From Devosia riboflavina (GTDB taxonomy: Bacteria; Pseudomonadota; Alphaproteobacteria; Rhizobiales; Devosiaceae): DNA of 64,000 nucleotides. The translations under genes and the position numbers were made by a program. The first letter of the stretch is position 1. The number at the start of each line of letters is the position of its first letter. Shown piece by piece: positions 6,434 to 63,892 of this stretch. The DNA lies in the NCBI RefSeq assembly GCF_000743575.1, contig NZ_JQGC01000001.1, positions 372,001-436,000 on the forward strand, given 5' to 3'. Below the pieces are notes generated by a model. It did not search any database. It was not told where the DNA came from and saw only the letters and a program-made list of their open reading frames with translations.

Positions 6434-6537
6434 CCCCCACCCTCATTCCCTCCCCACAAGGGGGAGGGAGGCGCTTGCCTCGATCTCCCAGCTCCATCGT
6501 CTCCCTCCCCCTTGTGGGGAGGGATTAAGGGTGGGGG
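6434..6537. repeat. Mosaic inverted repeat, CCCCCACCC family
   Basis: Inverted arms of 36 bases (6434-6469 and 6502-6537) match with two mismatches and flank 32 bases of unique sequence. The left arm starts directly after the TAA of the alpha-glucosidase. It sits between two convergent genes and belongs to the same family as the element at 9800. Confidence 0.85.
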
Positions 6538-9799: not shown

Positions 9800-9904
9800 C
9801 CCCCACCCTTGTTCCCTCCCCACAAGGGGGAGGGAGACGAAGGAACCGTGACGACTGTGGCTTGCGCCTCCCTCCCCTTGATGGGGAGGGAATGAGGGTG
9901 GGGT
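9800..9904. repeat. Mosaic inverted repeat, CCCCCACCC family
   Basis: Inverted arms (left from 9800, right ending 9904) of the same family as 6434-6537 flank about 30 unique bases between the convergent ends of the rifampin ADP-ribosyltransferase gene and the last gene of the Mn importer. Confidence 0.8.
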
Positions 9905-41499: not shown

Positions 41500-42645
41500 A
41501 TGAATTCGGGCAAGGTTGCTCTGATCACTGGCATTACCGGACAAGACGGTTCCTATCTCGCCGAATTTTTGCTGGAAAAGGGATATCGGGTCCACGGAAT
41601 ACAGCGTCGAGCCTCGCTCCCGAACGACCAACGCATTGGTCATCTCGTCGACGCGGAAACCTCCTCATCCGGCGTCACCCTGCACTATGGCGACCTTACG
41701 GATGGCTCGGGCCTGACGCGATTGGTCCGGGATATTGCGCCCGACGAGATCTACAATCTTGGGGCGCAATCGGACGTGAAGGTGTCGTTCGACGCGCCCG
41801 AATATACCGCCGATGTCGACGGCCTCGGCACCTTGCGGCTGCTGGAAGCAATCCGCCTGCTTGGGCTCGAGAACAAGACCCGCTTTTATCAGGCGTCCAC
41901 CTCGGAGCTTTATGGTCTCGCCCAGGAGACGCCGCAGCGGGAAACGACGCCATTTTACCCGCGCTCGCCTTATGCCGTGGCCAAGCTTTTCGCCCACTGC
42001 ACCACGATCAACTATCGCGAGGCCTATGGCATCTATGCCTGCAATGGCATTCTCTTCAATCACGAAAGCCCGCGTCGCGGCGAGACTTTTGCGACGCGCA
42101 AAATTACGCGTGGCCTCTGCAATATCGCGCTGGGATTGGAGCGCTGCCTCCATATGGGAAACATCGACGCGCTGCGTGACTGGGGCCATGCGAGGGACTA
42201 TGTCCGCATGCAATGGCTGATGCTGCAGCAGGCGGTTCCAGAGGATTTCGTGATTGCCACCGGCAAGCAATATTCCGTCCGCGAATTCATTCGCTGGGCG
42301 GCTTCCGACCTCGGCATCACGCTGGAATTTTCCGGTTCCGGGACAAGCGAGATTGGGATAGTCGCGCATGTGGCAGGCGACAGGGCGTCCCAAGTTTCAG
42401 AGGGAGACGTGATCCTGCGCATCGACCCGCAATATTTTCGCCCGACCGAGGCCGACGCCCTGCTCGGCGATCCCACCAAAGCGCGGGAAAAGCTGGGTTG
42501 GGTTCCCGAGATCAGCGCCCGGGAAATGTGCCGTGAAATGGTCGAGGCCGACTACCGCGCTGCACTGCGCCATGTCTCGAACCAACCCAACCCTGCGCTC
42601 GTGCCAGCCTTGGGCCGATATTCCGCGCCGACCCAGCCGGAGTAA
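41500..42645 (+). CDS. gmd: GDP-mannose 4,6-dehydratase
   Basis: 381 residues, about 15-20 longer than usual because of the C-terminal tail. The NADP-binding start is [21 protein letters not shown]. The active site shows QASTSELYG (Thr/Ser and Glu) and the Tyr-Lys pair in PYAVAKLF (about residue 156). The later [16 protein letters not shown] is typical. It converts GDP-mannose to GDP-4-keto-6-deoxymannose for fucose, rhamnose or perosamine-type sugars; the next enzyme is not encoded nearby. The last 94 bases overlap, antiparallel, the end of the hyi gene; the conserved Gmd sequence finishes about where the overlap begins. Confidence 0.92.
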
Positions 42646-43340
42646 CCGGCTTCGTCCAGGACCTTGAAGATATTGGCATAATTGATCTCGCCCGTACCCG
42701 GCTCGTGGCGGCCGGGATGATCGGCGATCTGGACATGGCCGATGCGGGACTGGAGGCGCTGGAACGTTGGGATCAGGTCGCCCTGAACGATCTGCATGTG
42801 GTAGAAATCGTATTGCAGATAGAGGTTCTCGTGGCCGACTGCGGCGGCGATGCGCTCGTAATCATCGGTGGAGTTGATCAGGAAGCCCGGCATGTCGCGG
42901 GTGTTGATTGGCTCTAGTAGGAGCATGATGCCTTCCGCGGCGAGGCGTGGGGCGGCGTAGCGGAGATTCTCGGCGAGCACGCTTTCGAGTTCAGCGCGGG
43001 CGACGCCAGCCGGGGCGATGCCGGCGAGGCAATTGACCTGGGTGCAGCCATTCGCCTTGGCATACTCGATGGCCTTGTCGACGCTTTCGCGGAATTCTGC
43101 GACGCGATCTGGATGGCAGGCGATGCCGCGCTCGCCGGCGGCCCAGTTTCCGGCGGGCAGGTTGAAAAGGGCCTGAGTGAGGCCGTGTTCTTGCAGGAGG
43201 TCCACCAGAACGGCTGTGGGCTGGTCGTAGGCGCCGACATATTCGACAGCCTTGAAGCCATCTGATGCTGCTGCCGCGAAGCGGTCGAGGAAGGGCAGCT
43301 CGGGGTAGAGCATCGAAATATTGGCCGAGAAACGCGGCAT
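42552..43340 (-). CDS. hyi: Hydroxypyruvate isomerase family protein (TIM-barrel sugar isomerase)
   Basis: 262 residues from the ATG at 43340, preceded by GGAG. It belongs to the AP-endonuclease-2/xylose-isomerase-like TIM barrels. Hyi-like metal and catalytic residues are Glu in [13 protein letters not shown], the QYDFYHMQ strand, [14 protein letters not shown] and Glu in [10 protein letters not shown]. The classical reaction interconverts hydroxypyruvate and tartronate semialdehyde; related proteins act on other keto sugars. It is the last gene of the long minus-strand peptide operon and has a 23-bp palindrome just upstream. Its 3' end overlaps gmd by 94 bases. Confidence 0.85.
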
Positions 43341-43356
43341 GTCTGGGGGCTCCGAT

Positions 43357-43379
43357 GTGAGTGGGTAGTACCCACTCAC
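43357..43379. promoter_or_regulatory. Perfect 23-bp palindrome upstream of hyi
   Basis: GTGAGTGGGTA-G-TACCCACTCAC: two perfect 11-base arms around a single G, 16 bases before the hyi ATG and 27 bases after the amidohydrolase stop. There is no T run, so an operator for a dimeric repressor is more likely than a terminator. I found no second copy in the window. Confidence 0.7.
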
Positions 43380-43406
43380 TCAGATAGCCGAGTGCACGAA
43401 CTTGGA

Positions 43407-44642
43407 CTAGTTCAGCGCGTTCTTCACGATACGGCCACTGGCCATGATGATGGGCATGTTGGCGCCGTCGTCCTGTAAGAGGGAGATGTCCGAAAGCGGG
43501 TCGCCGTCGACCACGAGGAGATCGGCAAAGGCGCCTTCGGCGACGACACCCACCTGTCCCTCGAGGCGGCAGAGCTTGGCGCCGATGACGGTGGCGGAGC
43601 GGATGATTTCTTGTGGTGTGAGGACCCTGGCGAGGAGTTCGAATTCCATGCCATGGTATTTTCGCAGTTGCCCGAGGAGGTCGGAGCCAAAGGCCATGGG
43701 CAGGCCCGCATCGCGCATGATTTCGAGGGAGCGCAGTCCACCGCTGCGGACGACGTCGATCTTGGCGAATTCGGCTGCGCCGAGACCGAGCGCTTCGCCT
43801 TCGAGGGCGAGCGCATCATAGGCGACGAGGGTGGGGACGGCGATGCAGCCCTTCTCAGCCGCCTTTCTGGCGGTGTCGGGTTCGATCAGGTTGCAGTGTT
43901 CGAGCGAGTGCACGCCGAGTTCGACGCAGCGAGCGATAGACTTGTCGGTATAGACGTGGGCGGCGACATAGAGGCCGGCGTTTTCGGCCTCTTCGACCAT
44001 GGCGCTGATTTCGTCGCGCGAATACTGGATGGAGTGGATCGGGTCATTGGGCGAGGAGACGCCGCCATTGGCCATGACCTTGATGAAGTTGGCGCCTTCC
44101 TTGATCATGGTGCGGCAGGCGGCGCGGACATTGTCGACGCCATCGACGATGAGGCCCATGGAGCCCAAGCGATCGGAGAAAAGGCCCGGACGATCATCGG
44201 TGCGCTGGCGCAGGTCGGCATGGCCGCCGGTGGTGGTGAGGCCCTTGCCGCAGATGATGAGGCGGGGGCCGGCGATAAGGCCCTCGTTAACCGCACGGAC
44301 GAGGCCGTAATCGGCACCGCCGAGATCGCGCAGCGTGGTGAAACCGCGCTGTAGGGCTTCTTCCATAACCCGCGCGGAGCGCAGGGCGGCGAGGGAAGCA
44401 GGGGCGATCATATTGGCCCAAAGGTCGAGGGTTTCGGCGACGACATGGACGTGGCAATCGACGAGGCCGGGCATGATGGTCTTGCCGGCGAGGTCGATCA
44501 CTTCCACGCCTTCGGGCCGCGCAAGGCCGGTGCCGATGGCGGCGATGCGCTGGTTGGTGACCAGCACGTCGAGACCCTGCCGCAGGATGCCGGCTTCGGC
44601 GTCGAGAACATTGCCGCCGGTGAAAAGATAGGACGTGGTCAT
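43407..44642 (-). CDS. Metal-dependent amidohydrolase (imidazolonepropionase/prolidase-like)
   Basis: 411 residues of the amidohydrolase superfamily. Metal ligands can be followed: HVH in MPGLVDCHVHV, a likely carboxylated Lys in NFIKVMANGG, His in YVAAHVYTD, His in VHSLEHCNL and Asp in PMAFGSDLLG. The subgroup includes Xaa-Pro dipeptidases and enzymes that open small cyclic amides, so it may cleave a dipeptide or cyclic imide taken up by the linked transporter. It starts 9 bases after the end of an ABC ATPase gene in the same operon. Confidence 0.88.
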   Translation of the reverse strand: MTTSYLFTGGNVLDAEAGILRQGLDVLVTNQRIAAIGTGLARPEGVEVIDLAGKTIMPGLVDCHVHVVAETLDLWANMIAPASLAALRSARVMEEALQRGFTTLRDLGGADYGLVRAVNEGLIAGPRLIICGKGLTTTGGHADLRQRTDDRPGLFSDRLGSMGLIVDGVDNVRAACRTMIKEGANFIKVMANGGVSSPNDPIHSIQYSRDEISAMVEEAENAGLYVAAHVYTDKSIARCVELGVHSLEHCNLIEPDTARKAAEKGCIAVPTLVAYDALALEGEALGLGAAEFAKIDVVRSGGLRSLEIMRDAGLPMAFGSDLLGQLRKYHGMEFELLARVLTPQEIIRSATVIGAKLCRLEGQVGVVAEGAFADLLVVDGDPLSDISLLQDDGANMPIIMASGRIVKNALN

Positions 44643-44651
44643 GAAAGCAAC

Positions 44652-45626
44652 TCAGCGGTTGTGGCAGGCGACCATCTGGCCACCTTCGCGGGCGGTCAGG
44701 GCGGGTTCGGTGGTCTTGCAGACGGCGGTGACGAGGGGGCAGCGCGTGTGGAACGGGCAGCCACTCGGCTTCTTCGTTGCGCTCGGGATGTCGTCATTGG
44801 TGGCGCTAAAACTGTGGCGCTTGCGCGGGTCGCGGGAGGGCGCCGAGCGCATCAGCAGTTCGGTATAGGGATGGCCCGGCTCGGCAAAGATACGCGTCTT
44901 GGGGGCGATCTCGACGATCTTGCCCAGATACATGACGGCGACGCGGTGCGAGATGAATTCGACCACGCCAAGATCGTGCGAAATCGACAGGTAGGAAACG
45001 CCGAGATCGCGCTGCAGGTCGCTGAGGAGATTGAGGATCTGCGCCTGCACCGACACGTCGAGCGCTGAAACCGGCTCGTCGCAGACGATGACGTCGGGGT
45101 TAAGCGCCAGGGCGCGGGCAATGCCGATACGCTGGCGCTGGCCGCCCGAGAATTGGTGGGCGAAATTGTCGGCCTGATCGGGACGGAGGCCGACGCGTTC
45201 CATGAGTTCTGCAACGCGCGTCTCGCGCTCGGCCGGGGTGCCGACCTTATGGATGTCGAGCGGGGCGCGAATAATGTCCTTCACGCGCTGGCGGGGATTG
45301 AGGGACGAGAAGGGATCCTGGAAGACAATCTGCATGCGTCGGCGATAGCTTTTCAGCGCCGCGCGATTGAAGCCGCGGATTTCCTGGCCGTCGAACTGCA
45401 CGCGGCCACCGGTCGGCTTGACGAGGCCCATGAGGGCCAGGCCGGTGGTCGACTTGCCGCAGCCGCTCTCGCCCACAAGGCTCAGGGTTTCGCCGCGATT
45501 GAGCGAAAAGCTGACGCCATCGACGGCCTTGACCGCGCCGACCTGCCGCTGGAGCACGCCGGCACGGATGGGGAAGTGGACTTCGAGGTTCTCGACCGAG
45601 AGCAAGGGGGTGCGATCAGGCTGCAT
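44652..45626 (-). CDS. Peptide-type ABC transporter ATP-binding protein (DppF/OppF-like)
   Basis: 324 residues from the ATG at 45626 (GGGAG upstream), overlapping the preceding ATPase gene by 11 bases. Walker A is GESGCGKSTTGLALMG, the signature FSGGQRQRIGIARAL and Walker B VIVCDEPVSALD. The C-terminal oligopeptide/dipeptide transporter domain with Cys in SGCPFHTRCPLVTAVC fits the OppF/DppF group, where such Cys may hold an Fe-S cluster. It energises import together with the second ATPase. Confidence 0.9.
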   Translation of the reverse strand: MQPDRTPLLSVENLEVHFPIRAGVLQRQVGAVKAVDGVSFSLNRGETLSLVGESGCGKSTTGLALMGLVKPTGGRVQFDGQEIRGFNRAALKSYRRRMQIVFQDPFSSLNPRQRVKDIIRAPLDIHKVGTPAERETRVAELMERVGLRPDQADNFAHQFSGGQRQRIGIARALALNPDVIVCDEPVSALDVSVQAQILNLLSDLQRDLGVSYLSISHDLGVVEFISHRVAVMYLGKIVEIAPKTRIFAEPGHPYTELLMRSAPSRDPRKRHSFSATNDDIPSATKKPSGCPFHTRCPLVTAVCKTTEPALTAREGGQMVACHNR

Positions 45627-46620
45627 CGTCGTGCTCCCAGCAGGCGGCCCAGTGTCCGGGGCGTTTTTCTTCAAATGGCGGGCGCTCTTCGAGGCACCGA
45701 GCCGAGGCGCCCGGGCAACGCGGGGCAAAGGCGCAGCCCTTGGGCAGGTTCCAGAGCGGAGGAACGGTGCCCGGAATATCGGCGAGACGATCGCCGGCTT
45801 CGCTTGAGGCGCCAGCACCCGGAACCGCGCCCATCAGCCCGATCGTGTAGGGATGAAACGGGCGATCGAAGAGGTCGAAAATGCTCGCTTCCTCGACCTT
45901 GCGGCCCGCATACATGACGATGACGCGGTCGGCGACTTCCGAGACGACGCCGAGATCGTGGGTGATGAGGATCTGCGCGGTGCCGAGGCGCTTCTGCAGG
46001 TCGGAAATCAAGCCGAGGATCTGCGCCTGAATGGTCACGTCGAGCGCCGTGGTCGGCTCGTCGGCGATGATGATCTTGGGGTCGCAGGCGAGCGCCAAAG
46101 CGATCATGGCGCGCTGGCGCATACCGCCGGAAAGCTCATGCGGGAACTGGCTGGCGCGGCGCTCGGGATCGGGCATCTGCACGAGACGCAACACGTCGAC
46201 GGCGCGGGCATCGGCCTCGCGGCGGCTGCACTTGCGGTGCTGGCGGACGGATTCGGCGATCTGTTCGCCGATGCGCAGCACCGGATTGAGCGCGGTGAGC
46301 GGCTCCTGAAAAATCATGGCGATCTTCTCACCGCGGAAATCTTCGACCTGCCGCTGATCCATGGCGAGGAAATCCTGGCCCTCGATCAGCACCTTGCCAC
46401 CGGCAATGGTGGCAGCATCGGGCAGGAGCCGCAGGAGGGACAGGGCGGTCATGGATTTGCCGCAGCCGCTTTCCCCGACGATGCAGAGGGTCTCCCCTGC
46501 CCTGACCGAGAAATTCATGTCGGAGACGACGGCAAAAGCGCCATTCACGCCTCTGATCTCGATATCGAGACCGGAGACTTCCAGAACCGGGACATGGGTT
46601 GCTGTGTTCATTTCGCTCAT
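45616..46620 (-). CDS. Peptide-type ABC transporter ATP-binding protein (DppD/OppD-like)
   Basis: 334 residues from the ATG at 46620, with GGAG 9 bases upstream; a TTG five codons earlier is possible. Walker A is GESGCGKSMTALSLLRLL, the signature LSGGMRQRAMIALAL and Walker B IIIADEPTTALD. The C-terminal Cys-containing extension (GCAFAPRCPGASARC) marks the OppD/DppD type. It heterodimerises with the following ATPase. The gene lies between the deacylase gene and its partner in the same operon. Confidence 0.9.
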   Translation of the reverse strand: MSEMNTATHVPVLEVSGLDIEIRGVNGAFAVVSDMNFSVRAGETLCIVGESGCGKSMTALSLLRLLPDAATIAGGKVLIEGQDFLAMDQRQVEDFRGEKIAMIFQEPLTALNPVLRIGEQIAESVRQHRKCSRREADARAVDVLRLVQMPDPERRASQFPHELSGGMRQRAMIALALACDPKIIIADEPTTALDVTIQAQILGLISDLQKRLGTAQILITHDLGVVSEVADRVIVMYAGRKVEEASIFDLFDRPFHPYTIGLMGAVPGAGASSEAGDRLADIPGTVPPLWNLPKGCAFAPRCPGASARCLEERPPFEEKRPGHWAACWEHDDAA

Positions 46621-46686
46621 TGCCGTCGTCTCCAATGCCGGGCTAGTGGGGCACGCCCGGCATGTTTGGGGTCGCTTTCGCGCGTC

Positions 46687-47631
46687 TTAGTCGGTGGAGC
46701 CTTCGAGGTTACCGACCATGAAACCGTAGTCGCCGCTGTGGACGAGATTGCGGGTGAGGTGCTGCATGATCATCACGCCATTGGCGAAGGGCGTCGGGAT
46801 CTCTTCGAGCACTTCGAACGTGTAGGGGCTGACGACGCGACCAAGGAGCTGGCCGCCCTTGATGACTTCGCCATTGGCCGGAGCCAGCGGTTCGAGCCAG
46901 CCGCCCTGGGTCGGGCGGATGCCGGCCAGTTCGTTGACGACGATCTGCTTGGGATTGGTCCACGGATCGCCCGGAATGGCGCCGATGGTTTTCAGCATAT
47001 TGAGCACGCCGTCGACCGTCTGCTTCACATAGGGGGTCTGGTCGACAATGCCGCCGCCGAGCTCGATCACGGCCACCGGGATATTGCGGGTGTCGATGGT
47101 CACCGACTTGGTGGTGCCGCCGAAGACGGTGCCCTGCTTGTTCTCGACCGGACGGTAGAGGAGTTTTGAGCCGAAGGCGCGCGACAGGCGCTCGTCGTTC
47201 CAGATGTAGACGTAGTCGACGGTCGGGCGATCGGTGCCCGAATGCAGGTCGATATGCACGTCGATGACATTGAGGAACTCATTGGTCATCGCGTGGGCGA
47301 GCTGCTGGGAATAGGTGCCCTTGGGATTGCCCGGAAACTGGCGATTGAGATCGACCTTGTCGATGGTAGCAAAGCGCTCGTTGACGGCGAAGGCATAGGG
47401 ATTGGCGACCGGCAGCAAGAGGATGCGGCCCTTGAGGGGCTGGTCCTTTAGCGCGCGATAGAGATCGAGAATGGCCTGGGAGCCGGTGTTCTCGTTGCCG
47501 TGGATGGAGGCGGAAATGCCGATGGTGGGACCATCCTCTTCGCCGACCAGCTCATGGATGAACAGCACTGCATCGCTGCCATCGGCATGCGTCGTGAACT
47601 TGGGACGAAGCTGGTTGATGGATTTGACCAT
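46687..47631 (-). CDS. Succinylglutamate desuccinylase/aspartoacylase family deacylase
   Basis: 314 residues, zinc carboxypeptidase-like (M14) fold. Zinc ligands are His and Glu in SIHGNENTGS and His in VIDVHIDLHSGTD; a catalytic Glu candidate lies in VAVIELGGGIVD. The C-terminal beta domain (residues about 225-314) is typical of the AstE/AspA group. Members remove acyl groups from N-acyl amino acids or related amides. Its place between permease and ATPase genes suggests that the imported substrate is N-acylated. Confidence 0.88.
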   Translation of the reverse strand: MVKSINQLRPKFTTHADGSDAVLFIHELVGEEDGPTIGISASIHGNENTGSQAILDLYRALKDQPLKGRILLLPVANPYAFAVNERFATIDKVDLNRQFPGNPKGTYSQQLAHAMTNEFLNVIDVHIDLHSGTDRPTVDYVYIWNDERLSRAFGSKLLYRPVENKQGTVFGGTTKSVTIDTRNIPVAVIELGGGIVDQTPYVKQTVDGVLNMLKTIGAIPGDPWTNPKQIVVNELAGIRPTQGGWLEPLAPANGEVIKGGQLLGRVVSPYTFEVLEEIPTPFANGVMIMQHLTRNLVHSGDYGFMVGNLEGSTD

Positions 47632-47647
47632 TCGAATATTCCTTTAG

Positions 47648-48508
47648 TTACTTTGCCTTGGCGGACTTGCCGCCGCCGCGAGAGAGCTGGCGGGGGTCGA
47701 GCACATCGCGCAGACCATCGCCGAGTAGATTGAAGCCGAGCACCGTCACCATGATGGTCGCGCCCGAGACGATGGAGAGCCACGGCGCGTCGCGCATGAA
47801 GCGGGTGCCATAGGCAAGGGTCCATCCCCAGGTCGGGGCCGGTGGCGGCAGACCGAAGCCGAGGAAGCTCAGGGCCGATTCCGAGATGATCGCCGTGCCG
47901 AGGCCAAGCGAGGCCAGCACGATGATCGGGCCCAAAGCGTTGGGCAGGATTTCCCGGAAGATGATGCGGGCAGGGCTGGCGCCGATGGCTTTGGCCGCCT
48001 GCACATAGTTCTGTTCGCGCAGCACCAGGGTCGTCGAGCGCACGACGCGGGCATATTCGGTCCAGGCGACGACAATGATCGCGAGCGACACGTTCATGAT
48101 GCCCGGGCCGAGAACCGCGACAATGGCGAGGGCCAGGACGATGGCCGGGAAGCCGAGGAAGATATCGGTGATCCGCATCAGGACCTGATCGACCCAGCCG
48201 CCGAAATAGCCGGCGACGAGACCGACCACGGTGCCGATGGCAGCCGAGACCGTCACTGCGATGACGGCGATGGTGAGCGAGATGCGGGCGCCGAAGACGA
48301 GGCGGGACCAGAGGTCACGACCGAAATTGTCGGTGCCGAGGATGTGCTCCATGGTCGGGCCATCGAAGCGGTTGCGCATGTCCATCTGCTCGATGCCATG
48401 GGTCGCGACATAGGGCGCGAAAATGGCGAGGAGGATGATGGTCAGCGAGATCAGCGCGCCGACGACGAGCGACACATTGGTGAAGGCTTTAGGCAAACGC
48501 ATGATCAT
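47648..48508 (-). CDS. Peptide-type ABC transporter permease (DppC-like)
   Basis: 286 residues with about six membrane helices, N-terminal TM followed by HGIEQMDMRNRF and GTDNFGRDLWSRLVFGARIS, the standard opening of DppC/OppC permeases. The coupling EAA-like loop is AAKAIGASPARIIFREILPN. The start at 48508 overlaps the preceding permease's stop by one base (TGATG). Together with that permease it forms the inner-membrane pore. Confidence 0.9.
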   Translation of the reverse strand: MIMRLPKAFTNVSLVVGALISLTIILLAIFAPYVATHGIEQMDMRNRFDGPTMEHILGTDNFGRDLWSRLVFGARISLTIAVIAVTVSAAIGTVVGLVAGYFGGWVDQVLMRITDIFLGFPAIVLALAIVAVLGPGIMNVSLAIIVVAWTEYARVVRSTTLVLREQNYVQAAKAIGASPARIIFREILPNALGPIIVLASLGLGTAIISESALSFLGFGLPPPAPTWGWTLAYGTRFMRDAPWLSIVSGATIMVTVLGFNLLGDGLRDVLDPRQLSRGGGKSAKAK

Positions 48509-49488
48509 CAACCCAACCGAATACGCGGGTCGACCGCTGCGTAGAGAAGATCCACCACCAGGTTCACGAGCGCGAAGACGATGGCGAAGGTGAGCACGAT
48601 GCCCTGGATCAGCGGCAGGTCACGCTGCGAAATCGCGGCGATGGTGAGCTGTCCGAGGCCGGGCCAGGCGAAGATGGATTCGGTGAGCACGGCGCCACCA
48701 AGGAGGGCACCGAAGCGGAGGCCGATGACGCTGAGTACCGGCAGGAGTGCGTTTCGGAGGGCGTGGCGGATGACGACGCGCCCCTTGCGCAGGCCCTTGG
48801 CATAGGCGGTGCGGACAAAGTCTTCACGCAGCACTTCGAGCATGGAGACACGAACGAGGCGCGAGATGATGGCCGCCGAGTTTGCCGCGAGGGCCAGCGC
48901 CGGCAGGGCGATGTGGCCGATCGAATCCCAGAGAACCTGCGGACGGCCGGTGATGGCGGCAAGGAAAGCTTCGGGCAGCGGCACGCCGCGGCCGATGGCG
49001 GGGAGCCAGCCGAGCTGCACGGCAAAGAGCAGCATCAAAAGGAGGCCGAGCCAATAGACCGGCATGGAGACGCCAAGCTGGGCAAAGAGCATGGTGACCG
49101 TATCCACCCACGTACCCTGGCGGATCGCCGCGAGGACGCCGAGCGTCAGGCCGATGAGGGTCGCAAGGATCAGGGCGACGACGGCGAGTTCGATGGTCGC
49201 ACCGAGGCGGCCGAGGATGATCTCGGAGACCGGCTGGTTCTGGAAGATCGAGCGGCCCATATCGCCCTGCAGCAGCGAGGCGAAGTAGTCCCAGAGGCGG
49301 ATGTACCAGGGGTCATTCAGGCCCAGCGTATTGCGCAGGGTTTCGATCGCTTCTGGCGTCGCGTCCTGACCGAGGAGGACGGCGGCCGGATCGCCTGGGA
49401 TAATGAGCAAGAGGCCGAAGGTGACCACCACCATGCCGATGGCCATGGGGATGAGCAGCAGGAGCCTGCGGATGACATAGGCTACCAT
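48508..49488 (-). CDS. Peptide-type ABC transporter permease (DppB-like)
   Basis: 326 residues. The N-terminus (YVIRRLLLLIPMAIGMVVVT) and the P-G-D-P segment (IIPGDPAAVLLGQDA) are signatures of the DppB/OppB/GsiC group. The coupling loop is RTAYAKGLRKGRVVIRHALRN. It forms the pore with the DppC-like protein. It lies 30 bases after the M24 gene in the operon. Confidence 0.9.
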   Translation of the reverse strand: MVAYVIRRLLLLIPMAIGMVVVTFGLLLIIPGDPAAVLLGQDATPEAIETLRNTLGLNDPWYIRLWDYFASLLQGDMGRSIFQNQPVSEIILGRLGATIELAVVALILATLIGLTLGVLAAIRQGTWVDTVTMLFAQLGVSMPVYWLGLLLMLLFAVQLGWLPAIGRGVPLPEAFLAAITGRPQVLWDSIGHIALPALALAANSAAIISRLVRVSMLEVLREDFVRTAYAKGLRKGRVVIRHALRNALLPVLSVIGLRFGALLGGAVLTESIFAWPGLGQLTIAAISQRDLPLIQGIVLTFAIVFALVNLVVDLLYAAVDPRIRLG

Positions 49489-49518
49489 TGGCTTTGCCTC
49501 TGCGGGACTGGATTACGC

Positions 49519-50691
49519 TCAGCCAAGGATCACCTCATCGAGCTTGCGGGGGTACTTGGTGAGGCTATCGGGCCCCTGTCCGGTGACGAGAACCGTGTCG
49601 GCAAGGCGGAAGCCGCCGAGGCCGGGCACGTAGAGAGCGGGTTCGGAGGAGCAGACCATGTTGGGGAGAAGCAGAGTGTCGTCGCCCCCTTCCACCCACG
49701 GCGGCTCGTGGAACATGACGCCCATGCCGTGGCCGACGCGATGGAGGCAGAATTCGCTGACGCCCTGCTCGCGGATGAAGCCGAGAGCTCGGTCGTCGGC
49801 GGAGGAACAGGTGGCGCCGGCAATCAGGCCCATCGTGCCGATGGCCTGGGCCTGCTGGGCCAGATTGTAGAAGCGTTCCTGCTCCTTGCTCGGCTCGCCC
49901 AGAATGAAGGTGCGCTCGCTTTCGGCGGCGCGCCCACCCACCCGGCAGCCGAGAGAAAGAATCATGCTTTCTCCGCGTTGCGGGCGGTGGCCGGTCGGCA
50001 TTCCGTGAGGGAAAGCGGAACGCAGGCCGGAATAGACAAGCCCACCGGCAATGCCCTGGACGAGCATGATGTCCTCGTGCTCGCGATACATTGTATCGAG
50101 CGCATGACGGATGATGTGGGCCTCGATCTCGATTTCGGTCGGCATGGTTTTGCCGGTGCGGAGCGCCTCGTCGATGACGGCGACGCCGGCGGCAACCATG
50201 GAGTCGGAAATGCGCGCGGCTTCGCGCTGCAGCACCAGTTCTTCAGGGCGCTTGGTGAGGCGCATTTTGCCCACGATGCCGGAGGCGCGTACCTTGGCAT
50301 TGGGGAAGGCCGCTTCGATCTGGCCGACGCGGGCGAGAGAGATGCCCGGTGAATGCGCGACGGTGCCCTTGATGTCGCCGACAGTGCGGGCGAGCACGGC
50401 AAAGGGCCGGTCGCGGCCGGGGAATTCGAAATAGACGACGAGTTCGGCTGCGGTCTTCTGGTCGAGCGCATGGTGGCGCTCAAGCTCGGGGATCAGCAGG
50501 TAGGCATCGGTTTGCGTCAGCGCGAAAACGACGGGACGCTCGGTGGTGTAGTGGGAAAAGCCGGTCGTGTAGATGACGTCGTCATTGGAATCGAGCAGCA
50601 GCACGTCGACGCCGTCTTCGGCCATGCGCGCACGAATGTCGCGATGTACGGATGCGTAATAGTCGGCGCTGAGGCGCTGGGAGAAGGCCAT
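49519..50691 (-). CDS. M24 family creatinase/aminopeptidase P-like protein with altered metal site
   Basis: 390 residues from the ATG at 50691 (AAGGA upstream). An N-terminal creatinase-type domain (about 1-150) precedes a pita-bread catalytic domain. The HRVGHGMGVMFHEPP segment is conserved. However, the two Asp ligands expected in the D-x-G...D-x-T-R-T stretch are replaced (MILSLGCRVGGRAAESERTF: Ser and Glu positions). Creatinase itself uses this fold without metal, so a non-metal C-N hydrolase is likelier than a metallo-aminopeptidase. It follows the binding-protein gene in the operon. Confidence 0.85.
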   Translation of the reverse strand: MAFSQRLSADYYASVHRDIRARMAEDGVDVLLLDSNDDVIYTTGFSHYTTERPVVFALTQTDAYLLIPELERHHALDQKTAAELVVYFEFPGRDRPFAVLARTVGDIKGTVAHSPGISLARVGQIEAAFPNAKVRASGIVGKMRLTKRPEELVLQREAARISDSMVAAGVAVIDEALRTGKTMPTEIEIEAHIIRHALDTMYREHEDIMLVQGIAGGLVYSGLRSAFPHGMPTGHRPQRGESMILSLGCRVGGRAAESERTFILGEPSKEQERFYNLAQQAQAIGTMGLIAGATCSSADDRALGFIREQGVSEFCLHRVGHGMGVMFHEPPWVEGGDDTLLLPNMVCSSEPALYVPGLGGFRLADTVLVTGQGPDSLTKYPRKLDEVILG

Positions 50692-50757
50692 GGCGATGTC
50701 CTTGGAGTGGGGCCACAAGGCCGGCCGGCACCGAAGCGCCGGCCGGGATAGTCACGA

Positions 50758-52296
50758 TCAGTCGGTGAAGCCGATCAGGCCGCGGAGATTGCCGCGCGGC
50801 GTGGCCTGCACTTCGACCGGCAGGTCCTTGGCGTAGAACAGCTGATAGCCCTGAGCCGAGATGATGTAGTAGGGCAGCTCTTCGGCCAGGATGGTTGCGG
50901 CCTTCTGATAGGCAGCGGCGCGGCCAGCCTGGTCGAGGGTCGAACGGCCCTCCTGGAGGAGCGCGTCGACTTCAGGGTTGGAATAGCCACCCCAGTTGGT
51001 CGGGCCACCCGTGGACAGCTGGGCGAACATCAGGCGATCGGGATCGACGATGTTGAGCCAGCCGAGGAGCGCGATCTGGTGCTTGCCCTGCTGCACGTAG
51101 TTGGTCGAGAAGGACGGCCAGTCGCTGATCTGGGCGGTTGCCTTGACGCCGGCGGCTTCAAACAGAGCCTGCAGGAACTCGACGCTCTGGACGCGGTTGG
51201 TGTCTTCGCTGTGGGTCGAGAGAACCACTTCGAGGTCCTTACCGTCCTTGTCGAGTACGCCGTCGGCATTGCTGTCGGTCCAGCCGAGTTCGTTGAACTG
51301 GGCAATGGCCGCTTCGATGTCGAAGGTCGGCTGCGCGATGGCATCCGAGAAGGCCCAGGACGATGGCAGGATGATCGAGTGTGCTTCCTGATCGACGCCC
51401 TGGTAGATGTCGTTCACGATGGTTGCCTGATCGACGAGCTTGGCGAAGGCCTGGCGCATCTTGGGATCAGACAGCAGCGGATCGTTGACGTTGAAGTTGA
51501 GGTAGTTCACGCCGAGACCGGCGGTGATGACATTGCCGAAGCGGTCATCGGCCTTGAGGCGTTCGATATCCTGCGGGGCCAGAGGAGACTGGATGACGTC
51601 GAGATCGCCAGCTTCGAAAGCCTGCGAACGGGCCGAGTTGTCGCCGATGATCTTGAGGGTGACGTTCTCGATCGTCGGCTTGCCGCGCCAGTAGTTTTCG
51701 TTGGCTGCGAGCACGATCTCGCTGCCGCGGTTCCACGAGACGAGCTTCATCGGGCCGGCGCCGACCGGGTTGAGCGCGATATCGGTGCCGCCTTCGACGA
51801 GGGCCTTCGGCACGATGCCGATATCGAGATAGGTGAGGAGCGGTGCATAGGGCGCAGAGAGCGTGAACTTCACGGTCTGCGGACCGACGGCTTCGACGGC
51901 CGAGATCGGCGCATAGAGTGCGCGGCTCGGGGCGTTGAAGTCGGGATTGACCAGCGTCGTATAGGTATAGACGACGTCATCGGCGGTCAGCGGGCTGCCA
52001 TCCGAGAACTTCAGGTCCGGGCGGAGCTTGAAGATGAAGGTCTGCGGATCGGGCGTTTCCCAGCTTTCGGCCAGGTCCGGCACCGGTTCGAGGCTCGGGG
52101 TGATGTGAACGAGACCAGAATAGATCAGGTCAGCGGTGCGCGAGGCTGTCGTATCGCGCATCAGGCGCGGATCGAGCGTACCGGCATCCACGTCCATCCC
52201 CACGATGAGCGCGTTGCTGTCCTGTGCGAAAACGGTCTGCACCGGCATGAGGCTCAGCGCTATCAAGGCGCTGGTCGTCAACAAAAATTTCTTCAT
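50758..52296 (-). CDS. Peptide-type ABC transporter substrate-binding protein (family 5)
   Basis: 512 residues. A signal peptide (LIALSLMPVQTVFAQ) precedes the family 5 solute-binding fold. Typical segments are LAESWETPDPQTFIFKLRPD, LKFSDGSPLTADDVVYTY and NPVGAGPMKLVSW. It would capture dipeptides, oligopeptides or similar amides in the periplasm and deliver them to the two permeases downstream in the operon. AGGGA precedes the ATG. The regulator gene ends only 24 bases upstream on the same strand, so both probably share a transcript. Confidence 0.9.
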   Translation of the reverse strand: MKKFLLTTSALIALSLMPVQTVFAQDSNALIVGMDVDAGTLDPRLMRDTTASRTADLIYSGLVHITPSLEPVPDLAESWETPDPQTFIFKLRPDLKFSDGSPLTADDVVYTYTTLVNPDFNAPSRALYAPISAVEAVGPQTVKFTLSAPYAPLLTYLDIGIVPKALVEGGTDIALNPVGAGPMKLVSWNRGSEIVLAANENYWRGKPTIENVTLKIIGDNSARSQAFEAGDLDVIQSPLAPQDIERLKADDRFGNVITAGLGVNYLNFNVNDPLLSDPKMRQAFAKLVDQATIVNDIYQGVDQEAHSIILPSSWAFSDAIAQPTFDIEAAIAQFNELGWTDSNADGVLDKDGKDLEVVLSTHSEDTNRVQSVEFLQALFEAAGVKATAQISDWPSFSTNYVQQGKHQIALLGWLNIVDPDRLMFAQLSTGGPTNWGGYSNPEVDALLQEGRSTLDQAGRAAAYQKAATILAEELPYYIISAQGYQLFYAKDLPVEVQATPRGNLRGLIGFTD

Positions 52297-52320
52297 TCCC
52301 TGTTCCCTTGCTGTGACTAA

Positions 52321-53325
52321 TTAAGCGGATAGTCGGCCCGCTAGCTGACCACCCTTGGCGCGCCTGAGATCGGCGAGCCGCGGAGCCAGAATGGTGTCGA
52401 GAGCGCCGGTATCGGGCGCGTGGCGATATTCGAAACACTGCACGCCGGGCCGCACGAGCTGGGCCACGTGATCAGCGCCGGAAGCGTAGACGACGGCGTC
52501 CGACCCCTCGATCACCTCCGCCAGATCGGGCGCGGAGGACCAGGTGACGCGGATGTCGGAAATGTGCGGCGCGAACTCGCGCACGCTGGGGCGCATGATC
52601 GCGATATATTCCTTGAAGTGAGTGATGGCGGCGACGCGGGCGCGGGAGTCGAGGCCCGCAAGGTTCTGCCGCGTGCGCTGCGAAGGGATGAAGCGCAGAC
52701 CGAGCACTTCGCCGCCTTCGACGAGGGAGCGCACTTCCGCTTCCCTGTGGCTGAAGGTCAGCACGATATCGGCGGCGGCACAGGCCCGGCGCTGCGGACC
52801 ATCGGCGCGGATGCTGTCGAGCGTGACGAGTTCGATCTGGTCATTGCTGGCAAGCGCGGGGCGGATTTCCTCGACATAGTCGCGGCCCGGACCTTCGAAG
52901 ATGCAGACAAAGACGATGTTGAGCCCGGTGGCCGGGCGGCGCATCTGCGCGCCGGCATTGATCATCGACACCAGCGCCATGGACGAGACGCCAAGCGCCT
53001 CGGCCTTGGAGAGGATGGCCTCGATATCGGCACGGAGGGCATTGATCGGCTGCCCTGAGGCGGCGAGCGCCAACGGGTCGCGCGCCGTGAAGGCACCAAG
53101 GCCCGCGCGCATCTCGATCAGGCCTTCATCGCGGAGTTGCTGATAAACCTGACTGACGGTCATCGGGGCGATGCCGAGCTCGCTCGCGAGCTGCCGGACC
53201 GATTGCAGCTTGGTGCCATAGGGCATGTCGCTGAAGGCCAGCACGTAGCTCAAGAGCCCATGCAATTGCGTCCCGACCGGGACGGGAAGCGACTTGTCGA
53301 TGCTGGACGCGTCTATCGTGAACAT
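52321..53325 (-). CDS. GntR-type transcriptional regulator with a non-standard effector domain
   Basis: 334 residues from the ATG at 53325; the frame is open to 53439 but the upstream part has no similarity. The winged-helix DNA-binding domain is LPVPVGTQLHGLL..., KLQSVRQLASELGIAPMTVS and QVYQQLRDEGLIEMRAGLGAF (about 10-80). The remaining 250 residues are alpha/beta and do not show UTRA, FCD or aminotransferase motifs I know; LNIVFVCIFEGPGRDYVEEI and IVLTFSHREAEV look like a Rossmann-type ligand-binding core. First gene of the peptide operon and divergent from the aldo/keto reductase, so it probably controls both. Confidence 0.82.
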   Translation of the reverse strand: MFTIDASSIDKSLPVPVGTQLHGLLSYVLAFSDMPYGTKLQSVRQLASELGIAPMTVSQVYQQLRDEGLIEMRAGLGAFTARDPLALAASGQPINALRADIEAILSKAEALGVSSMALVSMINAGAQMRRPATGLNIVFVCIFEGPGRDYVEEIRPALASNDQIELVTLDSIRADGPQRRACAAADIVLTFSHREAEVRSLVEGGEVLGLRFIPSQRTRQNLAGLDSRARVAAITHFKEYIAIMRPSVREFAPHISDIRVTWSSAPDLAEVIEGSDAVVYASGADHVAQLVRPGVQCFEYRHAPDTGALDTILAPRLADLRRAKGGQLAGRLSA

Positions 53326-53416
53326 GTGTTCTACCACGTTGATACACTGACCGTAACCACGAGTTCCCGACACCGCAATAGGGTCTGCAATTTTTTTGCA
53401 CACCGTTTGATTTCGC

Positions 53417-53430
53417 TGCACGAATGTGCA
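53417..53430. promoter_or_regulatory. Candidate operator between the GntR regulator and aldo/keto reductase genes
   Basis: TGCAC-GAAT-GTGCA is a perfect 5-4-5 palindrome in the 193-base divergent gap. Related TGCA words sit nearby (TTTTGCACACC at 53395 and ATGCATGAAATC at 53434). It is a plausible autoregulatory site for the adjacent GntR-type protein. Confidence 0.45.
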
Positions 53431-53518
53431 CAAATGCATGAAATCAGGCGAATTTTACCGGCTTTTGCGCTGGGCTATCGCCGTTTGCCGGTCGTTTTCT
53501 GCGTCTTGAGGTGTACTA

Positions 53519-54490
53519 ATGGAATATACCAACCTGGGCCGGACGGGCCTGAAAGTGTCGCAGCTGGCGCTCGGCTGCATGACCTTCGGCTCGCCAACCT
53601 GGGCCCCATGGGTGCTGGATGAAGCGGCCTCGCGGCCGATCATCGACAAGGCCGTGGACCACGGGATCAACTTCTTCGATCTGGCGGACATGTATTCGGC
53701 CGGTGCAAGCGAAGAGGTGGTCGGCAAGGTGCTGTCCGCGCGGAAGCGGCAGAACCTTGTGCTGGCGACAAAGCTCTACAATCCGATGAGCGGCGACCCC
53801 AACGATCGGGGCCTGTCGCGCAAGCACATCTTTGAGGCCGTGGACGGCAGCCTGAAGCGGTTGGGTACCGACTATATCGACCTCTACCAGCTGCATCGCT
53901 TCGACTATGGCACCCCGCTCGAAGAGACGCTGGATGCACTCAATGACGTCGTTCGCGCCGGCAAGGTGCGCTATCTCGGCGCCTCCTCCATGCACGCCTG
54001 GCAGTTCATGAAGGCGCTCGGCATGCAGCGCGCCAATGGCTGGGCGCCCTTTGTGTCCATGCAGCCGCACTACAACCTGATCTATCGCGAGGAAGAGCGC
54101 GAAATGCTGCCGCTCTGCCGCTCGGAAGGTATTGGCGTCATCCCCTGGAGCCCCCTCGCCCGCGGGCGTCTGGCGGCCCGCACCGACGCCGATACGACGC
54201 GTTCGCAGACCGACAAGACCGCCTCGGCGCTTTATGATCGGTCGCGTGAACAGGACGATGCCGTTGTTGCTGCCGTGCGCACCGTGGCCGAGCGCCATGG
54301 CCGGCCGCCGGCCCAGATCGCCTATGCCTGGGTCGCCACAAGGCCGGGGATCACCGCGCCTATCGTCGGCATTTCCAAGCTCCATCAGTTCGATGATGCC
54401 GTCGCTGCGCTTGAGGTGAAGCTCAGCGACGAGGATGTGGCGCTGATGGAAGCCCCCTACTATCCCAAGCCGGTTGCCGGCCACCAATAG
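53519..54490 (+). CDS. Aldo/keto reductase
   Basis: 323 residues, (beta/alpha)8 barrel. The catalytic tetrad is visible: Asp and Tyr in FFDLADMYSAGASEEVVG, Lys in LVLATKLYNP and His in DLYQLHRFDYGTPLEE. The C-terminal GISKLHQFDDAVAALEVKLS matches NADPH-dependent members of the YajO/AKR11-13-like type. Substrate unknown. It begins the divergent arm of the peptide locus and is followed by a metallopeptidase-like gene after 11 bases. Confidence 0.9.
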   Translation: MEYTNLGRTGLKVSQLALGCMTFGSPTWAPWVLDEAASRPIIDKAVDHGINFFDLADMYSAGASEEVVGKVLSARKRQNLVLATKLYNPMSGDPNDRGLSRKHIFEAVDGSLKRLGTDYIDLYQLHRFDYGTPLEETLDALNDVVRAGKVRYLGASSMHAWQFMKALGMQRANGWAPFVSMQPHYNLIYREEEREMLPLCRSEGIGVIPWSPLARGRLAARTDADTTRSQTDKTASALYDRSREQDDAVVAAVRTVAERHGRPPAQIAYAWVATRPGITAPIVGISKLHQFDDAVAALEVKLSDEDVALMEAPYYPKPVAGHQ

Positions 54491-62076: not shown

Positions 62077-63654
62077 TTACTCGAAGGTGACCGTGGTCAT
62101 GTTCGGCTGGTTTTCCGGCTGAACCGGCAGCGTCACGCCGGAACGCATCGCATAGGCCAGCACCTGGTTGTGCACCGGCAGCAGGACGCGGTCGGCCTTA
62201 ACGGTGGCCCAGATGTCAGCGACACTCGCGTCACGCTTGGCCTGGTCGCTCTCGGTGCCGAGCGAGATGATTTTCTCGTCGAGCTCGGGATTGGTATAGA
62301 GGCCGACATTGTAGGTGCCGTGTGTTTCGGTCTTGGTGTGCACGAGGTCGTTGAACACATAGGCGCTGTCGAAGGTCGGAACGCCCCAACCGAGCAGGTA
62401 GAAGTCGGACTCGTTGGCGAGGATGATCGGCGAGTGTTCGGCGACCGGACGCGAGGCCAGGGTCACCTGGATGCCGATCTGGCCGAGCATGCCGACATAG
62501 GCGGTCGAGATCGCTTCGTCGTTGACGTAACGATTGTTCGGCGTGTCGAGGGTGACGGTGAAACCATCGGCATAGCCGGCTTCGGCCATCAGTTCCTTGG
62601 CACGTTCCACGTTCGGCGCGGGATAGGCGTCGAGTTCTTCGGTCCAGCCAGCCACGAATGGCGGGTTCGGGATACCGGTCGGGATCGACTGGCCGCGCAT
62701 CACCACCTTCTGGATGGCGTCGCGATCGAGCACCAGTTCCATGGCCTCGCGCACCAGCGGATTGTTGAACGGGTTGCTATCGGTGATGTTGGACGACTTC
62801 AGCGGCGCATCGCCGAACTTGTAGCCGAAATAGATGAAGCGGTTTTCGGGGCCCGTTTCGACCTTGAAGCCTTCGGTCGAGGAGAGACGCTCGATATCCT
62901 GCGGCGGCACGTCCTGCACGATGTCGACTTCACCCGAGAGTAGAGCCGAGATGCGGGTCTGCGCATCGGCAATGGTCAGGTACTCGACGCCGGTCACGGC
63001 CGGGGCTTCGCCCCACCATTCCGGGTTGGACGCGAGGACGGTCTTTACGTCGACTTCACGCGACACCAGCGTATAGGGGCCGGTGCCATTGGTGTTGAGC
63101 ACGGCATGGTTGGTGGCGCCGCTGGCGAAATCCTGGACGACGGCGAGATCGTTCTCGTCGGCCCAGGTCTTGTCCATGATGAAAGTGTTGGTGAGGTTGT
63201 TCGGGTAGATGAGCGAGGGGCCGGCCATCTGGAACTCGACGGTATAGTCGTCGACCGCAGTCACGCCTTCCACCACGGAATGCAGCTGCTTCATGTTCGA
63301 GAATTCGCTCTTGGCGCGGGTGATGGAGTAGACCACGTCCTCGGCGGTGAAGTCGGCGCCGTTGTGGAATTTGACGCCTTCGCGCAGCTTGAACACCCAG
63401 ACGGTGTCGTCGCCTTCCTTAAGTGCCCATTCGGTGGCGAGGCGTGGCGTCAGGATGCCGGCATTGTCGCGGCCGACCAGCGTCTCATAGATGTGGTGGG
63501 CCAGCGTGTGCGTATTGCCCTGGTTCTGCGAATGCGGGTCCAGCGTGAGCGCATCCGATGAGCGGGCCCAGCGGATGGTCTCGGCATTGGCCACACCGGC
63601 GAGCATGGTCGAAGCGACAAGCGCCACGGCAATGCGAGTCAGTGAAGTGTGCAT
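62077..63654 (-). CDS. Peptide-type ABC transporter substrate-binding protein (family 5)
   Basis: 525 residues with a signal peptide (IAVALVASTMLAGVANAETI). The family 5 binding fold shows LTLDPHSQNQGNTHTLAHHI, LREGVKFHNGADFTAEDVVY and GTGPYTLVSREVD. It starts the second peptide-type operon (binding protein, two permeases, fused ATPase, TetR). It differs in the binding-cleft region from the protein at 50758, so the two operons probably import different ligands. The ATG follows GGAGAG. Confidence 0.9.
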   Translation of the reverse strand: MHTSLTRIAVALVASTMLAGVANAETIRWARSSDALTLDPHSQNQGNTHTLAHHIYETLVGRDNAGILTPRLATEWALKEGDDTVWVFKLREGVKFHNGADFTAEDVVYSITRAKSEFSNMKQLHSVVEGVTAVDDYTVEFQMAGPSLIYPNNLTNTFIMDKTWADENDLAVVQDFASGATNHAVLNTNGTGPYTLVSREVDVKTVLASNPEWWGEAPAVTGVEYLTIADAQTRISALLSGEVDIVQDVPPQDIERLSSTEGFKVETGPENRFIYFGYKFGDAPLKSSNITDSNPFNNPLVREAMELVLDRDAIQKVVMRGQSIPTGIPNPPFVAGWTEELDAYPAPNVERAKELMAEAGYADGFTVTLDTPNNRYVNDEAISTAYVGMLGQIGIQVTLASRPVAEHSPIILANESDFYLLGWGVPTFDSAYVFNDLVHTKTETHGTYNVGLYTNPELDEKIISLGTESDQAKRDASVADIWATVKADRVLLPVHNQVLAYAMRSGVTLPVQPENQPNMTTVTFE

Positions 63655-63860: not shown

Positions 63861-63892
63861 ATACATGACGTGCTGTTTTGCACGTCATGTAT
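63861..63892 (-). terminator. Perfect 13-bp hairpin, likely leftward terminator of a gene beyond the window
   Basis: ATACATGACGTGC (63861-63873) and its exact inverse (63880-63892) enclose TGTTTT. On the minus strand the stem is followed by TTTTTGAAG; on the plus strand no T run follows. It therefore could end a transcript entering from the right edge; an operator is the alternative. In 63893-64000 short open frames exist in all three minus frames but none is recognisable. Confidence 0.55.

Follow-up and report, generated by a model that had tools for sequence, protein, structure and literature searches.

Hairpins are a known route to uneven decay along the operons of E. coli, and in the account that PMC5927463 gives of it, 26 of the 34 operons of the class concerned have a stable hairpin without a uridine tract where the stabilised part reaches its 3' end. 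The stabilising hairpins of the malE-malF and puf type, as presented in that account, are stable, free of a U-tract and located between two same-strand genes (PMC5927463). A perfect palindrome between an amidohydrolase gene and hyi in a Devosia operon (Table 1) shares these properties, and the operon too has a hairpin behind its solute-binding-protein gene. Unlike the examples described there, the Devosia hairpin precedes the last gene of its operon and lies at a junction present in two sister species only, and its effect on mRNA decay is a prediction of the present analysis. Operators of the GntR/FadR type are likewise short perfect palindromes, with what we take to be a GT...AC consensus about the centre, as in the Devosia site; unlike such operators, this site differs in spacing in the sister species G047, occurs as a single copy and has none at the operon head. 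Finally, the hairpins attributed to template switching in the treatment of short stems by PMC8794818 combine a perfect stem with compensatory change, as does the Devosia hairpin, although the latter comes with neither an ancestral sequence nor a source copy that would reveal the event.

Table 1. Features of the Devosia locus, with positions in the window
Feature	Position (strand)	Description	Basis
hyi	42552..43340 (-)	hydroxypyruvate isomerase / 2-oxo-tetronate isomerase family, 262 aa	family profile matches
Gap, amidohydrolase stop to hyi start	43341..43406 (-)	66 nt	
3' side of predicted outer stem	43348..43355 (-)	would pair the Shine-Dalgarno with 43380-43384 and 43387-43389	predicted
Presumed Shine-Dalgarno of hyi, GGAG	43350..43353 (-)	9 nt before the ATG	inferred from sequence
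Perfect palindrome GTGAGTGGGTA-G-TACCCACTCAC	43357..43379	in minus-strand operon; 11-nt arms, 1 central base, 0 mismatches	
RNA form of the palindrome	43357..43379 (-)	10-bp stem with 3-nt loop, GUGAGUGGGU-ACU-ACCCACUCAC	predicted fold
Amidohydrolase (Amidohydro_1)	43407..44642 (-)	gene directly upstream of hyi	domain match
Second hairpin	50721..50746 (-)	GC-rich, between solute-binding-protein gene and M24 peptidase gene	
GntR-type regulator	52321..53439 (-)	operon head; candidate regulator; true start possibly further in	

The palindrome and its gap

By the window we mean the whole 64-kb stretch of DNA that was analysed. The perfect 23-bp palindrome pointed out in an earlier note on this DNA is exact in sequence and coordinates, and read along the minus strand the locus passes from the amidohydrolase stop codon TAG (43409-43407) through TCCAAGTTCGTGCACTCGGCTATCTGA, GTGAGTGGGTACTACCCACTCAC and ATCGGAGCCCCCAGAC to the ATG of hyi (43340). 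Allowing up to 3 mismatches, the full 23-bp site is found nowhere else in the window; allowing up to 2, its inner 15-mer is unique in the genome (5.05 Mb, 113 contigs); and a genome-wide search for the exact 11-nt half-site, the check proposed in the earlier note, returned the palindrome's own two arms and nothing else. A dispersed (REP-like) repeat is ruled out by this single-copy status, in agreement with what had been claimed.

A perfect repeat of size 11 is not, taken alone, beyond chance. Palindromes with an arm of at least 11 and a loop of at most 8 occur at 4 places in the window; the chance expectation has a mean of 0.47 and a largest value of 2 counts per 64 kb in 15 simulations of first-order Markov sequence, a count in which one palindrome may figure more than once. 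The presence of the palindrome in G047 is the better evidence for a real feature. As RNA, the 91 nt at 43325-43415 fold with z = -3.7, and equally stable folds were seen in 0 of 200 shuffles. An Rfam scan of 2101 bases (up to E 1) gave a single match, which scored 13.6 bits (gathering score 50) and lies at 44361-44423, away from the palindrome; a known Rfam RNA family is thus ruled out, with no match at the palindrome and none above the gathering score.

Being stable and located where two genes meet, the stem could in principle act as a terminator or attenuator ahead of hyi. However, no T-run follows the palindrome on either strand, which bears out the earlier observation of a missing terminator tail, and the palindrome is absent from the 6 terminator-like sites found by scanning 42400-53700. 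An intrinsic terminator was rejected, the U-tract directly after the stem being missing. Given further that hyi looks constrained (see below) and so is probably still expressed, we regard termination or attenuation as highly improbable.

The hyi gene and its start

The hyi product passes the TIGR03234 hydroxypyruvate isomerase profile with 356.6 bits (cut-off 353.45) and also scores above the cut-off of the 2-oxo-tetronate isomerase profile NF043033; among the papers searched, none named hydroxypyruvate isomerase together with Devosia. The start at 43340 put forward in the earlier note is upheld by two observations. Among the best 30 matches to hyi in the genus, own gene included, the alignment begins at query residue 1 in 28 and at residue 3 in the other 2; moreover, the in-frame upstream extension of hyi is absent in G047, because there the stretch from GTG to ATG, counted on the sequence, measures 37 nt and is out of frame. 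Differences between hyi and its G047 counterpart amount to 0.061, 0.072 and 0.319 at codon positions 1, 2 and 3, respectively; the gene looks constrained, which makes its continued expression probable.

The gap as an operon junction

Upstream of the amidohydrolase gene the operon encodes two ABC ATPases, an AstE/AspA-type deacylase, two permeases, an M24 peptidase, a family-5 solute-binding protein and the GntR-type regulator, where the ATPases and permeases are presumed from their sequence. The second hairpin is identical in G047, G051 and G038, with the surrounding gap nearly identical in G047 and G051, and a perfect repeat (arm at least 7, loop 3-8) was not found in the corresponding gap between the solute-binding-protein and M24 genes of G035, G033 and G026. 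The M24 peptidase gene itself probably starts at the ATG at 50691 rather than at the TTG at 50718.

The genome G051 contains the same operon at 92% DNA identity over 11.1 kb, with operon, gmd and hyi on one contig. There, about 11.4 kb separate the amidohydrolase gene from hyi (L170 3718-15139) and about 1 kb separates hyi from gmd. Domain scans of eight ORFs identified a LacI-family regulator, a solute-binding protein, a GHL6-type protein, a permease, an ATPase, a Gfo/Idh/MocA oxidoreductase and a TIM-barrel protein in the amidohydrolase-hyi interval, and a 3-hydroxyisobutyrate dehydrogenase-like reductase on the gmd side. This block of about 11.4 kb, comprising the LacI regulator, a transporter and two sugar-metabolism-type genes, is missing from the genome studied here, and hyi therefore now lies directly behind the amidohydrolase gene. 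In G038, hyi is found near gmd with the TIM-barrel gene behind it. Copies of that TIM-barrel gene at 97-100% identity, plus an additional relative at 74-75%, are present in G051, G038 and G035; the own genome and G047 have only a 76% identical relative, at another place.

Amidohydrolase matches at E up to 1e-100 were obtained in 60 of 300 genomes. Among the best 30 of these 60, hyi lies within 180 nt behind the amidohydrolase stop only in the own genome and in G047, and both have the hairpin. No counterpart of the 62 nt at 43341-43402, hairpin included, was detected in the compared G051 stretch, and a short-word blastn search for a source of this filler, with the gap as query and the compared stretches of G051, G047 and G038 as targets, yielded, besides self and orthologous ends, only chance-level matches of 9-13 nt. 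On this comparative evidence the gap is the junction that formed when hyi lost its former neighbours, and the simplest history would be a gene loss in the common ancestor of the own genome and G047 that put hyi behind the amidohydrolase gene.

At the opposite end of hyi (minus strand), its 3' end overlaps that of gmd (plus strand) by 94 nt (42552-42645), and the final 26 or so gmd residues are read from sequence antisense to the end of hyi. In G051, gmd stops about 10 residues past the shared part, with the reductase gene between hyi and gmd. This overlap looks like a second deletion scar.

Conservation of the hairpin in G047

Of the 75 genus genomes searched with a relaxed pattern, two contain the hairpin, namely the own genome and G047. 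When the genus was queried with the 76-nt gap, these two were accompanied by weak matches only (E 0.02-1), and four of the weak matches (G029, G024, G012, G060) contain no perfect inverted repeat with an arm of at least 6. The G047 copy, GTGAGCGGGT-T-ACCCGCTCAC, has one arm pair changed on both sides, from T:A to C:G, and a middle shortened by 2 nt that brings the arms 2 nt closer together. All ten arm pairs are kept despite the divergence around them; pairing is thus retained, with one compensatory pair, in the sole other carrier among the 75 genomes. With the arms aligned by hand, differences are seen at 2 of 20 arm positions and at 14 of the 44 other aligned positions of the gap, and MAFFT gave identical arm pairing; fourfold sites of the two flanking genes differ at 74/245 and 43/125.

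Starting from a perfect ancestor, simulated neutral change left both lineages perfect with P of 0.0015 at 29% divergence, 0.0004 at 34% and 0.04 at 15%. Since the site was picked for being perfect in the own genome, the fairer figure is that for G047 alone remaining perfect, about 0.02-0.04 (the square roots of 0.0004 and 0.0015), which is suggestive but no more than that. Changes at no more than 2 of 20 arm sites would arise by chance with a probability of 0.015-0.043, which is mildly unusual.

These figures bear directly on the possibility that the palindrome is a scar without function, a perfect repeat that arose through replication template switching at or after formation of the junction and kept symmetrical by the same process. 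We consider this unlikely, but it is a serious rival, because only two sequences are informative. The repeat does lie inside junction sequence that lacks a detected G051 counterpart, and if symmetry were always repaired, 1 changed pair of 10 would be unremarkable (P about 0.17 at 29% divergence to 0.10 at 34%). Template switching can create perfect stems in one event, according to what PMC8794818 says of the process, yet that same discussion calls the upkeep of short stems by template switching less clear and its evidence circumstantial. In the absence of such repair the pairing would probably have been lost to neutral change, and no source copy for a template switch was identified, the gap having given only the short matches mentioned above in the G051, G047 and G038 stretches.

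A proposed hairpin in the polycistronic mRNA

The reading we prefer, although we would put it at slightly below an even chance, is that the palindrome acts as an RNA hairpin in the polycistronic mRNA, where it would shield the upstream message from 3'-5' decay and set hyi apart, and that it has been maintained by selection. A stable predicted stem-loop is found between same-strand genes with no U-tract behind the stem, as is the case for intercistronic stabilising hairpins, and the compensatory pair, the 2-nt change in the middle and the fold z of -3.7 fit this reading as well. The case rests on two informative sequences and is accordingly suggestive. In the mechanism that we propose, hyi, its former operon neighbours gone, came to be placed behind the end of the amidohydrolase operon, with the hairpin at that junction. 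Transcription would pass through the hairpin region, where no stop is expected because there is no U-tract. Following an endonucleolytic cut within hyi, the hairpin could halt 3'-5' exonucleases, to which it would be resistant, such that the transporter and amidohydrolase part of the mRNA might outlive the hyi part and leave hyi at a different level.

The earlier note had instead suggested a high-affinity operator with separate control of hyi, that is, a putative DNA site bound by a dimeric regulator such as one of the GntR type. The perfect symmetry of the site and the GntR-type regulator at the operon head speak for it, as does the GT-AGT-AC centre, which presumably resembles the FadR-subfamily consensus. 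However, the spacing between half-sites is 2 nt shorter in G047, albeit in one comparison, and the arms of that copy carry a symmetric base change; these two changes suit a hairpin better than an operator for a dimer of fixed spacing. The 11-nt half-site has no further copies in the genome, although not every operator has such copies, and at the operon head (53301-53560) four 7-nt half-site words were all absent, one of them, GAGTGGG, being present inside the operon at 50705. In addition, the NCBIfam subfamily matches of the GntR-type regulator lie far below their cut-offs, and no sigma-70-like promoter was found, which is weak evidence as such promoters may not fit the genus. The changed spacing, the absence of a second copy and an operon head free of half-site words lead us to disfavour an operator, which we regard as improbable; separate control of hyi through such a site goes unsupported, and the call shifts toward an mRNA hairpin at an operon junction.

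Folding predictions raise a further option, translational control by a hairpin that hides the Shine-Dalgarno of hyi in the outer stem (Table 1). In the own genome the predicted unpaired probability of this site is only 0.04-0.07, and the mean of 0.16 over -15..-7 is the lowest of 17 genus hyi leaders compared. In G047, however, the site is predicted to be largely open (0.50-0.59, and 0.63 in the leader comparison), for which reason occlusion is not conserved and was rejected as a conserved function. Such control is accordingly improbable, if less so than termination.

The palindrome is real but ordinary, a further example of a known hairpin type whose interest, stemming from its position at an operon-fusion junction, is modest. 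Its occurrence in two sister species and in none of the other 73 genus genomes searched points to a limited age. If an mRNA hairpin is the correct reading, there is a case for asking whether intercistronic hairpins are by-products of rearrangement that are later kept for uneven expression.

Hairpins before hyi in other operons

A perfect repeat (arm at least 9, loop 0-8) was found in the 150 nt upstream of hyi in 16 of 80 loci from named genomes; no enrichment at hyi is claimed, because many of the 16 loci are close relatives and some repeats are distant from hyi or fall within the gene before it. By eye, a GCCCC...GGGGC hairpin with a C-rich 5' arm was recognised in gaps of roughly 50-70 nt in 18 of 22 Pseudomonas-labelled loci and in the Pantoea-labelled L126, and was not visible in the Pseudomonas-labelled L130, L135, L152 and L153. 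In 14 of these 19 gaps, rows that are close relatives, 95.9% of cells pair (88.7% in shuffles), 11 cells are changed on both sides (4.8 in shuffles, 0/500 reaching the observed value), and the covariation score is 0.267 (0.141 shuffled, 0/500; sliding controls 0.004-0.021). The pairs changed on both sides (3 of 9; 100/500 shuffles) and the number of pair types (6; 345/500) are not above shuffles. In L126, L128 and L132, which are Pantoea- or Pseudomonas-labelled, the stem in the hyi gap is much longer than in relatives, possibly through stem extension.

The hyi hairpins of Pseudomonas and Oceanimonas resemble that of Devosia in lying in a gap of roughly 50-75 nt, with arms that covary in the Pseudomonas set. 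The distance from the hairpin end to hyi is about 22-24 nt in most Pseudomonas rows, about 35 nt in Oceanimonas L111 and 16-17 nt in the own genome. They have another sequence and another upstream gene, which we take to be gcl (glyoxylate carboligase), and nothing indicates that they are homologous to the Devosia hairpin. As a base rate, a perfect hairpin with an arm of at least 9 was present in 11 of 106 same-strand gaps of 30-120 nt: 2/21 in Devosia, 2/39 in Pseudomonas (with one Pantoea-labelled locus), 5/37 in Rhizobiaceae and 2/9 in Oceanimonas/Zobellella. This control is crude, in that rough ORF starts miss many real gaps, own included, related loci are recounted, and two of the 11 positives are themselves gaps before hyi (L113, L111). 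Since about one in ten comparable gaps holds such a hairpin by this measure, hyi is not claimed to be special. It is conceivable, though we think it unlikely, that hairpins arose independently before hyi in unrelated operons, behind the amidohydrolase gene of two Devosia species following gene loss and behind the presumed gcl of Pseudomonas and Oceanimonas, because hyi needs expression below or apart from that of its upstream neighbour; were this so, the Devosia case would represent a regulatory hairpin caught when newly born at the site of an operon fusion.

Other inverted repeats in the window

Two pairs of TCCCTCCCC...GGGGAGGGA inverted repeats occur at 6447-6524 and 9813-9891. Similar elements follow the amidohydrolase gene in L041 and precede hyi in L108, and the elements perhaps constitute a dispersed repeat family of the genus. 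A further inverted repeat with 13-nt arms, ATACATGACGTGC...GCACGTCATGTAT, lies at 63861-63892, some 200 nt ahead of another solute-binding-protein gene, which starts at 63654 on the minus strand; this repeat is perhaps a better operator candidate than the palindrome before hyi.
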